Shown here: in pieces, positions 33,149-38,513 of the stretch
How the letters are laid out: every line of letters starts with the position of its first letter
Numbering within the stretch: position 1 is the first letter of the stretch
Assembly: GCF_014200015.1 (NCBI RefSeq)
Contig: NZ_JACHOT010000001.1
Location: forward strand, 124,001-188,000
DNA from: Aminobacter niigataensis
Lineage (GTDB): Bacteria; Pseudomonadota; Alphaproteobacteria; Rhizobiales; Rhizobiaceae
Reading direction: 5' to 3'
Length of the DNA stretch: 64,000 nucleotides
Notes under the pieces: model-generated
Database searches by the model: none
Told to the model about the DNA's origin: nothing
What the model saw: the letters and a program-made list of their open reading frames with translations, nothing else
Position numbers and translations under genes: made by a program

Positions 33149-33898
33149 ATGAAACAGGACGAGAGACACTGGACCGGCGTGGCCGAGCAATGGATCGCGT
33201 GGGCCCGCGCGCCCGGCCATGACGCCTTCTGGGCCTATCGCAAGGGACTCGTGGATTTCATCGGCAAGGGATCTGGCCGCGCGCTGGAGGTTGGTTGCGG
33301 CGAGGGCCGCGTGTCGCGCGAACTCAAGGCGCTCGGCTACCATGTGACTGCGACCGATGCCGTCGCCGCCATGGTGGAAGCGGCCCGTGAGGCCAAGTCG
33401 GCCGACGACTATCGTGTCGCCGGTGTCGGCGACCTGCCTTTCGAGGACGGCTCGTTCGACCTGGTGATGGCCTACAACGTGCTGATGGACGTCCAGGACG
33501 TGCCGGCAGCGGCGCGCGAAATCCGCCGCGTCTTGAAGCCGGGCGGGACGCTGTTTGTTTCGCTGGTTCACCCGTTCCGCGACCGCGGCCGCTTTGCCGG
33601 GCGTGAGGCGGACGCGCCGTTCGTCATCGACGGCAGCTATTACGGCCGGGAGTATTTCGAGGGCGAGGAGCAGCGTGACGGCCTGACGATGCAGTTTGCC
33701 GGCTGGTCGCAGCCGCTCGAAGACTACATGGCAGCGTTCGAGGCTGCGGGACTGGCAATCACGGCGCTGCGTGAGCCCACTCCCGACACAGCTGATACAG
33801 ACCAATTGCGCCAGTGGTCGCGCATCCCGCTGTTCCTGTGGCTTAAGGCGCGCATCCTGGCCCGAGGTCGCAATGGTCGCCTGACACCGGTCCGTTAA
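33149..33898 (+). CDS. SAM-dependent class I methyltransferase
   Basis: The 249-residue protein has motif I ALEVGCGEGRVSRELKALGY for S-adenosylmethionine binding, TATDAVAAMVEAAREA (motif II) and FDLVMAYNVLMDVQDV (post-motif II), followed by VLKPGGTLFVSLVHP. These define a UbiE/COQ5-like class I methyltransferase. A ribosome-binding sequence (GAGGCAGCG) lies ahead of the ATG. Substrate is unknown. The adenylation-carrier-acyltransferase gene follows on the same strand after 118 bases. Confidence 0.88.
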   Translation: MKQDERHWTGVAEQWIAWARAPGHDAFWAYRKGLVDFIGKGSGRALEVGCGEGRVSRELKALGYHVTATDAVAAMVEAAREAKSADDYRVAGVGDLPFEDGSFDLVMAYNVLMDVQDVPAAAREIRRVLKPGGTLFVSLVHPFRDRGRFAGREADAPFVIDGSYYGREYFEGEEQRDGLTMQFAGWSQPLEDYMAAFEAAGLAITALREPTPDTADTDQLRQWSRIPLFLWLKARILARGRNGRLTPVR

Positions 33899-34016
33899 GG
33901 GCGGTCAGCCGGCACATATTAGAGGTCTCGCATTTTCTTGATGCAAATTATCAGGAATAAGGCTATCGGCTCGCGCGTTCAGGTGGCTGCATCGGAAGCG
34001 GCGGGGCGAGCGAAGA

Positions 34017-36578
34017 ATGGAATTCCTGCAGAAACTGGCGACGCATGGCGACCGTGCCGCCCTGATTTTCCCGGGTCGCCCCGCCATCAGCTATGCCGAG
34101 CTGGCACGCTGCGCAGCCGAGATGGCCGCAAGTTTCGGCAACGGCCGGAAACTGGTGGCCATCGAGGCGGCGAACTCCGAACACGCCATCACAGCCTATC
34201 TCGCGGCACGCGCCGGGGACCATGCCGTGGCGCTGCTGGCGCCGGGTGATGCCAGGGCCTTTGCCGACTTCGAAGAAGACTTCCGCCCCCACGCGAGCGT
34301 GCGGCTGTTCGACGGGCGCTGGCGCGTGGTCGAGCACGAGGGGGCAGGAGAGGCATTGCACGGGGACCTCGCCGTGCTGCTGGCGACGTCGGGCAGCACC
34401 GGCAAGAGCCGCTTCGTCAGGCTGTCGCGCAAGAACATCGACAGCAATGCCGACGCTATCGCTTCTTATCTGGGGCTAGCGGCGGACGACCGGGCGGCAC
34501 TGCTCCTGCCGTTCCACTATTCCTATGGCCTGTCGGTGCTCAACTCGCACCTGGCTGTCGGTGCCAGCGTGTTCGTCTCGGCCAAGGGCGTGGCGGACAA
34601 GGGATTTGCCGACGACCTGCGCGCGGCCGAGGCGACCAACATCAGCGGCGTGCCCTATTCCTACGAACTGATGGAAAAGACCGGGTTCCAGCCCGAGGAA
34701 CTGCCGTCGCTGCGTTTCATGACAGTGGCGGGCGGGCGCATTCCCGCCGGGCTTGCCGACACTTTTCGGCGCAAGCTCGAGCAAGACGGCCGCCGCCTTT
34801 TTCTGATGTACGGCCAGACGGAAGCGACTGCCCGGATCGCCTATGTGCCGCCGGAGGCGCTTGCGGCGAACCCCGACAGCATAGGCATTGCCATTCCGGG
34901 TGGCGAACTGATGCTGGTCGGCGACGATGGCGCGCAGATCGAGGCATCGGGTGCTGCGGGCGAACTCGTCTATCGCGGCCCGAACGTGATGATGGGCTAT
35001 GCCGAGAGCCGGGCCGATCTGGCGCGCGGTGACGAGGTCGAGGAACTGCGCACCGGCGATGTCGCCGAACGCTGTGAGAACGGCTTCTTCCGCGTCGTCG
35101 GGCGGCTCAAGCGCATGTCGAAGATCGCCGGCCTCAGGATCAGCCACGAGGCGGTGGAGCATGCGCTGGCGCAGCGTGGCATCGTGGCGGCTGTGACGGG
35201 CTGTGACCGGCGGCTGGTGGCGGCCTATTCTTCCGGCGAGGCGCCCGAGGACGTCTGCAAGCTGATGATCGCGGCGAGCGGCCTGACGCCGCTGCATGTC
35301 GAGGCGGTGGCGGTGGAAGCCCTGCCGCGGCTGGCATCGGGCAAGGTCGACTATCCGGCGGTGGCGCAGCGCGCACGACAGGCGGGGAAAACCGACCCCG
35401 GCATTGTCGAGGCGTTCAGCCGGGCCTTCTATCCGCGCAAGGTGACGCCGGCCGACAGCTTCGAGGCGCTGGGCGGCGACTCGCTGTTGTTCGTGCAGCT
35501 GTCGCTGACGCTCGAGCGCAAGCTGGGACGTATCCCCGAGGAATGGGAGAAGATGCCTGTGGGCACGCTGGCAAGGCTCGGGCGCCAGACCAGCGGTTTG
35601 CGCGTGGTCGATTCCGATCTCCTGATGCGGGCAATGGCGATCCTGCTCGTCGTGCTCCACCATGCCACGCTGTGGCCCATCCCCGGCGGGGCTGCGGCGC
35701 TGGTGATGCTGGTCGGCTACGGGCTGGCGCGTTTCCATGGCGCAGCCCTGATGCGCGGGGAGACGACGCGGCTGCTCAGGACGCTGGCCGCAAACCTGGC
35801 CGTCTATGCGCCGATCGTCGCCACATATTCGATCGCGCGCGGCGAGATGCTGTGGCCGTCGGTCTTCCTGGTCGGCAATCTCGGCATTTTCGATCCCAAG
35901 CACATGCTGCCCCATCTCTACTGGTTCGTGGAGGCCTACGCGCAGGTCATGCTGATCGTCGCCGGGCTGTTCTCGCTGCCGGCTGTGCGACGGCGGGTGG
36001 CCAAGAATCCCTTCGGCGTCGGCATGGCGGCGCTCGTCGTGGCGGTGGCGATCAAGTTCCTGGCGCCCAAGGTCTGGGCGGTCGGGGCGGTGCAGATCTT
36101 CACCGTGTCGGACGTGTTCTATCTCGCTGCCTTCGGCTGGTGCGTGTTCCACGCCCGAACAGCGCGGCAGCGCCTGCTGGTGCTGGCGGCTGCGACGCTG
36201 GCGTTTCCCGTCATGGCGTATTGGGGCGGCAACTGGACCGGGTCCTGGGTCAAGTTCATGCTGCAACTGGCCTGCGTGACCGTGCTGCTCTACATGCCGC
36301 GCGTGGCCGTGCCGAAGCAACTCGCCGCCGTCGCCCTGCCAGTGGCTGCTGCGGGCTATCACATCTACCTGTTCCATCGCCTGCTGCCGGAGCTGTTGGC
36401 GCCACACGTCAAGCCGCTGATCTCGTGGCCGGTGGCGACCGCGCTGAGCGTGGCAATCGGCATCCTGACGGGGATCGCGGCATTCCATGCCCAAAAGGCG
36501 CTCGCCGCCTGGCTGGCGGACCGACGCAGCCCGCGGGCCGATGCTCCGCTGGGGGCACACGCCGCGCCGGCGGAGTAG
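34017..36578 (+). CDS. Adenylation-carrier-acyltransferase fusion protein
   Basis: An 853-residue three-part protein. Residues 1-455 are an ANL adenylation domain with TSGSTGK (124-130), MYGQTEA (264-270), RTGD (345-348) and the C-terminal lysine in SGKVDY (Lys443). About 460-530 is an acyl/peptidyl carrier domain with GGDSL (phosphopantetheine serine 489). Residues 535 onwards form a polytopic membrane domain beginning MRAMAILLVVLHHATLW, like acyltransferase-3 family (OatA/NodX-type) enzymes. It may activate an acid, load it on its own carrier and pass it to an extracytoplasmic acceptor. A SAM methyltransferase lies just upstream. The acid and acceptor are unknown. Confidence 0.87.
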   Translation: MEFLQKLATHGDRAALIFPGRPAISYAELARCAAEMAASFGNGRKLVAIEAANSEHAITAYLAARAGDHAVALLAPGDARAFADFEEDFRPHASVRLFDGRWRVVEHEGAGEALHGDLAVLLATSGSTGKSRFVRLSRKNIDSNADAIASYLGLAADDRAALLLPFHYSYGLSVLNSHLAVGASVFVSAKGVADKGFADDLRAAEATNISGVPYSYELMEKTGFQPEELPSLRFMTVAGGRIPAGLADTFRRKLEQDGRRLFLMYGQTEATARIAYVPPEALAANPDSIGIAIPGGELMLVGDDGAQIEASGAAGELVYRGPNVMMGYAESRADLARGDEVEELRTGDVAERCENGFFRVVGRLKRMSKIAGLRISHEAVEHALAQRGIVAAVTGCDRRLVAAYSSGEAPEDVCKLMIAASGLTPLHVEAVAVEALPRLASGKVDYPAVAQRARQAGKTDPGIVEAFSRAFYPRKVTPADSFEALGGDSLLFVQLSLTLERKLGRIPEEWEKMPVGTLARLGRQTSGLRVVDSDLLMRAMAILLVVLHHATLWPIPGGAAALVMLVGYGLARFHGAALMRGETTRLLRTLAANLAVYAPIVATYSIARGEMLWPSVFLVGNLGIFDPKHMLPHLYWFVEAYAQVMLIVAGLFSLPAVRRRVAKNPFGVGMAALVVAVAIKFLAPKVWAVGAVQIFTVSDVFYLAAFGWCVFHARTARQRLLVLAAATLAFPVMAYWGGNWTGSWVKFMLQLACVTVLLYMPRVAVPKQLAAVALPVAAAGYHIYLFHRLLPELLAPHVKPLISWPVATALSVAIGILTGIAAFHAQKALAAWLADRRSPRADAPLGAHAAPAE

Positions 36579-36681: not shown

Positions 36682-37308
36682 ATGCGGAAGGTCGATCCTG
36701 AAAAGCACGCCGCCAGGCGGCAGGCGATCCTCGATGCGGCAAGGACCTGCTTCGCCAGGAAGGGTTTCCACCAGACCAGCACCGCCGAGATCTGCGCGGC
36801 GGTCGGTATGAGCCCGGGCAATCTGTTCCACTATTTCCCCAACAAGCAGGAGATCATCGGCGCGATCGTCGACCAGGAAGGCGAGGAGACGGCGGCATTC
36901 TTCCAGACGTTGGGTGCGCGCGACGACCTCCATGCCGCGCTGCTCGATTTCATGGACCTGGTGCTGGAATTGGCTGCCGATGCCGAGTTCTCGTCTCTGG
37001 CGCTGGAGATCGCCGCCGAAGCGGGGCGGGACCCGGCGATCGCCATGCGCGTGGGCCGCAATGACCGCGAATTGCGCTCGGCGCTGCAAGGCCTGCTGGC
37101 CGAGGCGGCGGCGCGCGGACAGGCCGACGCCACGCTCGACATGGCCGATGCGGCGACCTGGGTGGCGGCGCTGATCGACGGCATCTTCAGCCGCGTCGCG
37201 GTCGATGGCGAGTTCAAGCCCAAGAACCAGCACGCAACGATGCGCGTCCTGCTGGGGCGGTTCCTGCGGCCGCAGGCGGATGCCTCGACCGTGACGGCGG
37301 GGGCATGA
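36682..37308 (+). CDS. TetR-family transcriptional repressor
   Basis: The 208-residue protein starts MRKVDPEKHAARRQAILDAARTCFARKGFHQTSTAEICAAVGMSPGNLFHYFPNKQEIIGAIV, a complete TetR helix-turn-helix. The remaining residues form the helical ligand-binding domain. The frame is open further upstream but the operator lies in that region, so ATG at 36682 is the start. The stop overlaps the start of the DUF418 membrane gene by four bases, indicating coupled translation. The inducing ligand is unknown. Confidence 0.92.
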   Translation: MRKVDPEKHAARRQAILDAARTCFARKGFHQTSTAEICAAVGMSPGNLFHYFPNKQEIIGAIVDQEGEETAAFFQTLGARDDLHAALLDFMDLVLELAADAEFSSLALEIAAEAGRDPAIAMRVGRNDRELRSALQGLLAEAAARGQADATLDMADAATWVAALIDGIFSRVAVDGEFKPKNQHATMRVLLGRFLRPQADASTVTAGA

Positions 37309-38513
37309 GAGCAATGACTGCGAAATCGGTTCAACAAGAGCGGATCACCAACGTCGATGCGCTGCGCGGCTTTGCGCTGCTGGGCATATTGGTGGTCAAC
37401 ATCACGGCATTTTCCTCGCCTTACTACGGGCTCGGCGTTGCCGATCCGGCATTTGCCGCGCCGCTCGACCAGGCGGTGCGGTTCGTCGTCGCCTTCCTGT
37501 TCGAAACCAAGTTCTACCTGCTGTTCTCGTTCCTGTTCGGCTACAGCTTCACGCTGCAGATGGCCTCGGCGGAGCGCGCCGGCGAGGCCTTCGTGCCGCG
37601 CCTGCTGCGGCGCCAGGCCGGGTTGTGGGCGATCGGGCTGGCGCATGCGGTGCTGCTGTTCCACGGCGACATCCTGACGACCTATGCGGTGCTGGGCATG
37701 GTGCTGCTCGTGCTGCGCAACATCGAGGAGAAGACCGCGCTTCGGCTCGCCTTCTGGCTGGTCGTCGTCACGGCATTGGGCTGGGCAGCGCTTGGCGCAC
37801 TGGCGACACTGGATCCGATGCCGCTGGATGCAGCGGCGTTGCTCGCCGAAGGCGAGGCGGCAAAGTCGGCCTATCTCGCCACGCCGGGCAGCGTCATCGC
37901 CCAGCACCTCGCCGAACTGAGCAATGTCTGGGTGGTGATCGGCCTGATGCAGGGGCCATGCGCGCTGGCGATGTTCCTGGTCGGCCTCGTCGCCGGCAAG
38001 CGCCAGCTGTTCGTGCAGCTTGACGACTATCAGCCGTTGCTGCGCCGCCTGCTCGCTGCCGGCATGACCGTCGGCCTCGCCGGCGCGGCGTTCTACGGCT
38101 GGACTTCGGTCTACGGGATCGGCACCGGCTGGGAACTGCCCGGGCTGGCGGTTGGCCTGCTGACCGCACCGCTGCTGACCGGGGCCTATGTGGCGCTGGC
38201 GATGCTGGCCTTCCAGCGGTTCAGGCGCCTGCCCGAAATGCTGGCGCCGGCCGGGCGCATGGCCTTGTCCAACTACCTGTTCCAGTCGCTGGTCTGTTCG
38301 GTGCTGTTTTATGCCTATGGCCTCAGGCTGATGGGGGAGGTGCCGCCGCTGGGCGCGCAACTGATCGCCGTTGCGATCTTCGCCGGGCAGCTGGCGCTCA
38401 GCCGCTGGTGGATGGGCCGTTTCGCCTATGGCCCGCTGGAATGGCTGCTGCGCGCGGTGACCGTCGCCGCCTGGCCGCGATGGCGCAGGGACGCGGCGCC
38501 CGTCCGGCAATGA
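37305..38513 (+). CDS. DUF418-family membrane protein
   Basis: The 402-residue integral membrane protein begins NVDALRGFALLGILVVNITAFSSPYYG and has the diagnostic ALRGFALLGILxVN start, KFYLLFSFLFGYSFTLQ and a C-terminal SNYLFQSLVCSVLFYAYGL. This family (YeiB-like) shares remote relationship with acyltransferase-3 proteins. About eight to ten membrane helices are visible. It overlaps the preceding TetR gene by ATGA, so it is the regulated target. Start may also be the ATG nine bases later. Its activity is not known. Confidence 0.9.
   Translation: MRAMTAKSVQQERITNVDALRGFALLGILVVNITAFSSPYYGLGVADPAFAAPLDQAVRFVVAFLFETKFYLLFSFLFGYSFTLQMASAERAGEAFVPRLLRRQAGLWAIGLAHAVLLFHGDILTTYAVLGMVLLVLRNIEEKTALRLAFWLVVVTALGWAALGALATLDPMPLDAAALLAEGEAAKSAYLATPGSVIAQHLAELSNVWVVIGLMQGPCALAMFLVGLVAGKRQLFVQLDDYQPLLRRLLAAGMTVGLAGAAFYGWTSVYGIGTGWELPGLAVGLLTAPLLTGAYVALAMLAFQRFRRLPEMLAPAGRMALSNYLFQSLVCSVLFYAYGLRLMGEVPPLGAQLIAVAIFAGQLALSRWWMGRFAYGPLEWLLRAVTVAAWPRWRRDAAPVRQ

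Follow-up and report, generated by a model that had tools for sequence, protein, structure and literature searches.

A three-domain adenylation, carrier and membrane acyltransferase fusion with a probable link to iron in rhizobia and actinobacteria

The window analysed here is a stretch of 64,000 nucleotides from Aminobacter niigataensis (Rhizobiaceae; assembly GCF_014200015.1, contig NZ_JACHOT010000001.1, positions 124,001 to 188,000 of the forward strand), and coordinates without a locus label are those of the window. At 34017..36578 on its forward strand lies a gene for an 853-residue protein that joins an adenylation (A) domain of the ANL type, a carrier (T) domain and a membrane domain of the AT3 acyltransferase family, in the order A-T-AT3. 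Ahead of it on the same strand are a TGA-N9-TCA box of the IRO/RirA type, TTGATGCAAATTATCA (33938..33953, 63 bases before the ATG), and a gene for a 249-residue S-adenosylmethionine (SAM) methyltransferase (33149..33898). Following up an initial annotation of this stretch, we compared the fusion with its relatives in other genomes, and we are confident that it is under iron control and linked to iron transport.

Anatomy of the fusion protein

Pfam recognised three domains in the window protein, AMP-binding (2.3e-39), PP-binding (PF00550; 4.1e-5, 24.2 bits, above the cut-off of 20.8) and Acyl_transf_3 (PF01757; 3.1e-4). Together with the structural model, these matches place the domains approximately at residues 1-455 (A domain; 34017..35381, forward strand), 463-525 (carrier) and 526-840 (AT3; 35592..36551, forward strand). 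Conservation was read from an alignment of 74 sequences (A2), which left out L071, L078, L083, L098, L117, L120 and L125 as incomplete, broken in frame, extended too far or lying at a contig end, and did not include the homologues L033-L041 from the family search. The ANL core residues T124, S125, G126, E269, D348, R363 and K443 are kept in 74/74, which places the protein in PF00501, and R273 is likewise invariant. The carrier serine, Ser489 (codon at 35481..35483, forward strand), is also invariant; it lies in a GDSL motif kept in 74/74, preceded by a glycine kept in 73/74. With the PF00550 match, this serine marks the domain as a carrier and is its expected phosphopantetheine site.

As judged from the family's sequences, the C-terminal domain is an AT3 membrane acyltransferase. 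The signature R-X10-H (R538, H549), described as an AT3 motif of the first transmembrane helix (PMC9833829), is kept in all 74 aligned proteins, the C-terminal parts of 63/74 match PF01757 at E<=0.01 (best 1.9e-13), and about ten long hydrophobic helices are seen in the model. AlphaFold2 gave a mean predicted local distance difference test (pLDDT) of 87.4 and a predicted template modelling score (pTM) of 0.60 for the full-length protein, and 91.4 and 0.90 for the AT3 part. The RXXR motif expected at the cytoplasmic face of helix 3 is present in the window protein as R585 and R588; it is found at that place in 22/74 sequences and anywhere within 578-600 in 45/74. Loss of RXXR, considered as a mark of a carrier-bound donor, was dropped as an idea, the window protein having the motif. 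At E<=1 Pfam reported only the three domains named above; as condensation and thioesterase domains were not found, the fusion stands outside the nonribosomal peptide synthetase (NRPS) siderophore synthetases.

The three-domain protein is real. An assembly error at a domain boundary, which the initial annotation had named as a possible refutation, was checked: 34017-36578 is a single open frame with no internal stop in the genome sequence, and the same domain order recurs in many genera. The annotation had also proposed the three domains in one polypeptide, Ser489 as the carrier site and an acyltransferase as the membrane part, all of which are borne out by Pfam and by conservation, and we judge its view right that activation, loading and transfer would take place in one polypeptide with a membrane step. 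Its term 'OatA-like' holds for the AT3 domain but not for the SGNH domain, which Pfam did not find.

Distribution and phylogeny

Of 150 other genomes searched in the window's family, 9 have the full-length fusion, at 34-53% identity; two further genomes of the same genus among these 150 gave weak best matches (E 1e-38 and 7e-24), in the adenylation part only where the extent was listed. A scan of GTDB returned 588 relatives, a count that includes non-full-length ones, and the best 80 of them, matched over most of the query and some cut by contig ends or frame breaks, were taken for analysis of their loci. These relatives come from Aminobacter aganoensis (86%), Mesorhizobium, Rhizobium, Ensifer/Sinorhizobium, Shinella, Phyllobacterium, Leisingera, Rubellimicrobium and Marinobacterium and, on the actinobacterial side, from many Streptomyces, Micromonospora, Actinomadura, Arthrobacter and others. 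Thus the search for the same three-domain order that had been suggested at the outset succeeded in the Rhizobiales, Rhodobacterales, Gammaproteobacteria and many Actinobacteria. The spread is patchy, the AT3 part being found in one other of 288 genomes sampled across the class (E<=1e-20). Plasmid records gave 86 matches (E<=1e-60), of which 80 cover >=80% of the query, and public plasmid annotation mostly calls the fusion 'AMP-binding protein' only. In Leisingera the fusion is plasmid-borne in 17 records (those listed are about 72-150 kb), and one such plasmid (L131) carries metal and zinc ATP-binding cassette (ABC) transporter genes about 6 kb downstream of it.

One of the 90 loci had no fusion gene call in a second gene finder, and a FastTree tree was built from 85 of the other 89, those of 700-1000 residues. 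In this tree two Mesorhizobium genes form the sister group of the window and A. aganoensis genes (support 99), and one of the two adjoins FbpABC transporter genes. Adjacency of the transporter requires at least 11 changes on the tree, and so has been repeatedly gained or lost.

Two arrangements of related domains were seen outside the fusion. At L042:7949-10649 (minus strand), a related adenylation protein of 574 residues, without a carrier by Pfam, and a separate AT3 gene of 330 residues overlap by 17 bases. This pair is an unfused or split version of the fusion; an hhalign comparison of the fusion's AT3 profile gave 99.4% with this separate AT3 and 23.8% with the AT3 domain of L158. At L043, L044 and L045, other closely related A domains occur unfused, next to LuxE-like and LuxC-like genes, and L044:7892-16667 also holds genes for a weak carrier, a TPP enzyme, a NeuB-like protein and a glycosyltransferase (the domain scan covered L044 and one L045 gene, with families shared with L043 and L045).

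Iron-type boxes upstream of the fusion

Scored against a 19-base IdeR consensus, an IdeR-like box (>=14/19) precedes 29 of 37 actinobacterial fusions and 1 of 330 control genes of the same loci (Fisher p 1e-34, although p-values for these boxes overstate independence, the sequences being related). Eight actinobacterial loci fall under 14/19; in five of them the fusion is close to a binding-protein gene that itself scores 13-15/19 upstream. The Arthrobacter-type loci L108, L110, L112 and L123 have the IdeR-like box and no transporter beside the fusion.

A different box is found on the alphaproteobacterial side. With gene starts from the first gene finder, TTGA-N9-TCA precedes 26/43 fusions, the window's among them, and 19/648 control genes, and any other spacing from N4 to N15 occurs at 0-4 of the 43. 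The spacing test left out L078, L083 and L098, two of which had previously been counted as box-less; with two dropped rows restored, the counts are 26/45 against 20/679. When close relatives were collapsed by hand, 13 of 23 representatives picked from the tree carried the box. The operator of the iron regulator RirA has been given as TGA-N9-TCA (PMC8822346), an example being TGACTAAAATAATCAT before fhuA (PMC10510648). The alphaproteobacterial and actinobacterial boxes are two unrelated iron-type boxes. In the window the box lies between the methyltransferase and the fusion, which makes a separate promoter for the fusion probable.

The window's genome encodes RirA (NF008886, 254.7 bits against a cut-off of 193); as the regulator is thus present and a TGA-N9-TCA box lies in the promoter region of the fusion, the latter is a predicted member of the RirA regulon. 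The genome also encodes, elsewhere, at least part of what appears to be an FbpABC-type importer. An FbpA homologue at G000:C11:2219-3202 is 52% identical to the binding protein beside the Mesorhizobium fusion. TTGACCGCAAGTGTCA lies at the 5' edge of its frame as listed, about 86 bases before the likely start, which is 34 codons into that frame and precedes a signal-peptide-like stretch. The long frame that follows is probably the permease, by position and length only; one further TTGA-N9-TCA in the 9 kb around the homologue lies inside a long frame, and the ATPase was not located.

Linkage to FbpABC-type transporters

For linkage counts the 89 loci were re-annotated with a codon-model gene finder; the first gene finder had called what are probably antisense frames (families 21 and 38) in loci of high GC content. 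Three ABC-transporter families, namely a binding protein, an ATPase and a permease, occur no more than three genes from the fusion at 22, 22 and 20 of 37 actinobacterial loci, and every other family at no more than 3. All 26 members of the FbpA-type binding-protein family (f2) in the 89 loci lie within three genes of a fusion, 22 of them at the 37 actinobacterial and 4 at the 52 other loci. When the binding protein of L114 was compared with the PDB, its best matches were ferric-binding proteins (7w3w at 2.4e-88, HitA, SfuA and FbpA), and a Tyr-Tyr pair, which we take to be the iron-binding tyrosines, is kept in 26/26. Among 16 records of an annotated collection, six name an iron ABC transporter beside the fusion (Pararhizobium, four Rhodococcus and Mycolicibacterium), and genes overlap by 4 bases at the fusion locus in Mycolicibacterium crocinum and Rhodococcus fascians.

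Other genes were noted near the fusion. In Kibdelosporangium (L099:12401-14382) two FecCD-like permease frames, judged by eye from their first residues, follow the FbpABC-fusion operon. A glutaredoxin or MauE/DoxX-like membrane protein and a MerR-type regulator are repeatedly found close to the fusion, in records of Pararhizobium, Shinella and Roseateles (L129:4125-4919, L130:11594-12376 and L133:11570-12352).

Predicted substrate of the adenylation domain

In A domains that take amino acids, an aspartate equivalent to GrsA D235 or VinN D230 binds the amino group (PMC11253843). No D or E occurs at 166-175 in any of the 74 aligned sequences, and this holds whichever residue is aligned, so the result for the amino-binding aspartate does not depend on the alignment; the fusion thus lacks the mark of an α-amino-acid NRPS A domain. 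Ser/Cys169 aligns with VinN D230, and the alignment with LgrA may shift the place by two residues. Small residues at the D235 place are noted for hydroxy-acid A domains, and McyG, which takes Phe, is noted as an exception to the role of this place (PMC11253843). The invariant R273 aligns, two residues past a gap of one residue, with VinN R331, to which a key part in the substrate loop is ascribed (PMC11253843). Taken together, the missing acid and the invariant arginine suggest that the A domain activates a non-amino carboxylic acid, perhaps one with a second carboxylate. The specificity residues, which the initial annotation had proposed to inspect, therefore point to a class of acid without naming the substrate.

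Relation to known systems

DltA, DltC and DltB carry out D-alanylation, and AlmE, AlmF and AlmG place glycine on lipid A. Both systems, like the fusion, combine an adenylation enzyme, a carrier and a membrane acyltransferase, and in both an acyl group made ready in the cytosol acts outside. The fusion differs in being a single polypeptide, in using AT3 rather than an MBOAT (Dlt) or a lysophospholipid-acyltransferase type of enzyme (Alm), in lacking the pocket aspartate for an amino group and in standing under iron-type boxes. With OafB and OatA (PF01757) it shares R-X10-H, some ten helices and, in the window protein, RXXR (R585, R588), but it is without SGNH by Pfam and has RXXR at that place in only 22/74. 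Since an A domain and a carrier are fused ahead of the AT3 domain, a carrier-bound donor is expected in place of acyl-CoA. The AT3 fusions named in the accessible part of a paper on the family are with SGNH, alanine-racemase and eukaryotic domains, and A-T-AT3 is not among them (PMC9833829).

For the A domain, the nearest solved sequences are VinN, LgrA and oxalate-CoA ligase. VinN, a 3-methylaspartate adenylation enzyme (3WVN), is nearest by phmmer, and its R331, in the MYGQTE loop, is the counterpart of R273; VinN D230 is replaced by Ser/Cys169, and no amino group is therefore expected. Oxalate-CoA ligase (5IE2), a stand-alone ligase in its PDB entry, is the top Foldseek match of the full model, a likeness at the level of the whole fold. 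The recurrent neighbours of the fusion are of the FbpABC/HitABC ferric transporter kind; no A-T-AT3 partner of such transporters, nor the fusion and its iron link, was found described in the literature searched, which was mostly without subscription papers.

Neighbouring genes in the window

The upstream methyltransferase is genuine, as had been annotated (PF08241, 9.1e-27), but its place as a partner of the fusion is not upheld. A tblastn search of the 89 other loci gave three weak generic matches only (L115, L051 and L087), with none at L058, whose fusion is about 85% identical. Having no close relative at the other loci, the methyltransferase was rejected as a partner and is judged a neighbour outside the system. 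Another class I methyltransferase lies three genes downstream of the fusion in Rhizobium etli Mim1; it is 31% identical over 86 residues, in the SAM-binding part only. A major facilitator superfamily (MFS) gene of the window is a possible partner, its family being common to the window and L058 and an MFS gene also lying beside the Pararhizobium fusion. Downstream, at 37305-38513, a DUF418/YeiB-like membrane protein gives a weak Acyl_transf_3 match (21.9 bits). In hhalign comparisons the fusion's AT3 profile gave 0.2% with the window MFS protein and 0.1% with the DUF418 protein, the latter thus showing no likeness to the fusion's AT3 domain.

Proposed mechanism and alternatives

Beyond the observed domain anatomy, invariant residues, operator-type boxes and transporter linkage, we infer a substrate, an acceptor and a product that would together form a relay. 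At low iron, as the boxes suggest, RirA in alphaproteobacteria or an IdeR/DmdR-type repressor in actinobacteria would leave the promoter. The A domain would adenylate a carboxylic acid without an α-amino group, perhaps a small one with a second carboxylate or a hydroxyl near Arg273, and the acyl group would pass, by the chemistry usual for such families, to the phosphopantetheine arm on Ser489. The tethered arm may then enter the AT3 pore from the cytoplasm, as published for acyl-CoA in a model of OafB, and a metabolite or an envelope component on the outer face may receive the acyl group close to His549. The product might help to capture ferric iron or deliver it to an FbpABC-type importer; many relatives have the genes of such an importer beside the fusion, and the window's genome has them, at least in part, elsewhere. 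We think it rather likely that the whole relay operates in some such form, the fusion being a one-protein synthase induced by iron starvation with an iron-related product. More tentatively, and with less confidence than we would need to call it probable, the product may be siderophore-like: the fusion would, on the outer side of the inner membrane, make from two ordinary metabolites an acylated (hydroxy)carboxylate chelator that is released, and FbpABC would collect the iron from it.

Several observations weigh against the proposed iron-related synthase or against parts of it. An FbpA-type gene is not near the fusion at 48 of the 52 non-actinobacterial loci, the window included, and nine of the 16 records name no iron transporter beside the fusion (one of the 16 is without annotation); among the nine is a Phyllobacterium record in which an unnamed substrate-binding protein adjoins it. 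NCBIfam gave the binding proteins sub-threshold matches only, mainly to aminoethylphosphonate and thiamine binders and with no ferric name, which is why the PDB match and the tyrosine check matter. TTGA-N9-TCA is missing at 17/43 alphaproteobacterial loci, no box was recognised at the Leisingera and gammaproteobacterial loci, and Irr ICE and E. coli Fur boxes show little enrichment, in that 6 and 12 of 90, respectively, reach the 99th percentile of the controls. TTGA is also compatible with a -35 element, which does not account for the fixed N9 to TCA. Chromatin immunoprecipitation sequencing of S. fredii RirA found the motif in only 5/10 peaks, and no such fusion is among the genes named at peaks in the accessible part of that paper (PMC8822346), on a strain that may or may not carry the gene. 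As for the protein, PF01757 scores 20.4 bits on the full sequence and 24.4 on the C-terminal part alone, under the Pfam cut-off of 31, and fold searches of the AT3 model against the PDB and a viral library gave nothing at E<=0.001, which leaves the AT3 assignment to the sequences of the family. Finally, no exporter or second biosynthetic gene recurs across actinobacterial families within three genes at the 37 loci; donor and acceptor would then have to be ordinary metabolites.

The main rival is an iron-regulated modification of the envelope, in which the acyl group would be placed on a lipid, peptidoglycan or a wall polymer and the surface, with no released chelator, would bind or pass on ferric iron. 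AT3 enzymes do acylate carbohydrates, including many envelope ones (PMC9833829), the same iron-type boxes and transporter linkage would be expected, and the lack of a recurring exporter family in the actinobacteria suits it. The fusion is shared, however, by diderm rhizobia and monoderm actinobacteria, which in general have few envelope acceptors in common, and no envelope-polymer pathway was seen to recur among the partly annotated neighbours; we regard this rival as rather unlikely. A role in fatty-acid or lipid metabolism seems improbable. Here an acyl-ACP ligase joined to a membrane acyltransferase would make an acyl lipid, iron control being a side effect of membrane remodelling. The best NCBIfam matches are indeed acyl ligases, but they lie far under cut-off (TIGR03098, 170.8 against 592.35 bits; PRK08633, 129.3 against 1221), leaving the protein outside the exosortase-A-associated ligases of TIGR03098, and the nearest solved sequences, the oxalate-CoA ligase fold, the invariant Arg273 in the predicted pocket loop and the linkage to a ferric importer all speak against it.

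Decoration of a surface glycan or peptide together with the upstream methyltransferase and with no special link to iron, the role first suggested for this locus, is very improbable. It draws on the gene order in the window, on the AT3 domain and on the unrelated-looking methyltransferase of R. etli Mim1, and is opposed by the absence of a close methyltransferase relative at the 89 loci, the R. etli gene matching only in its SAM-binding part, by the box between the two window genes, and by the recurring ABC cassette and iron-type boxes, no glycan pathway being seen to recur among the partly annotated neighbours. Gellan-type glyceryl transfer to an exopolysaccharide was rejected likewise, a literature search having turned up two unrelated reviews and its pathway not being seen to recur (the Sinorhizobium/Ensifer neighbour families are unannotated).

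To conclude, if the proposed iron-related relay is right, the A-T-AT3 fusion would be a minimal single-protein module for iron acquisition and would suggest what feeds some FbpABC importers, as well as providing a case of an AT3 enzyme that a tethered carrier supplies. Should the siderophore-like version of this relay hold, it would constitute a one-enzyme route distinct from both NRPS assembly lines and NRPS-independent (NIS) synthetase pathways, with an AT3 domain fed by its own carrier.

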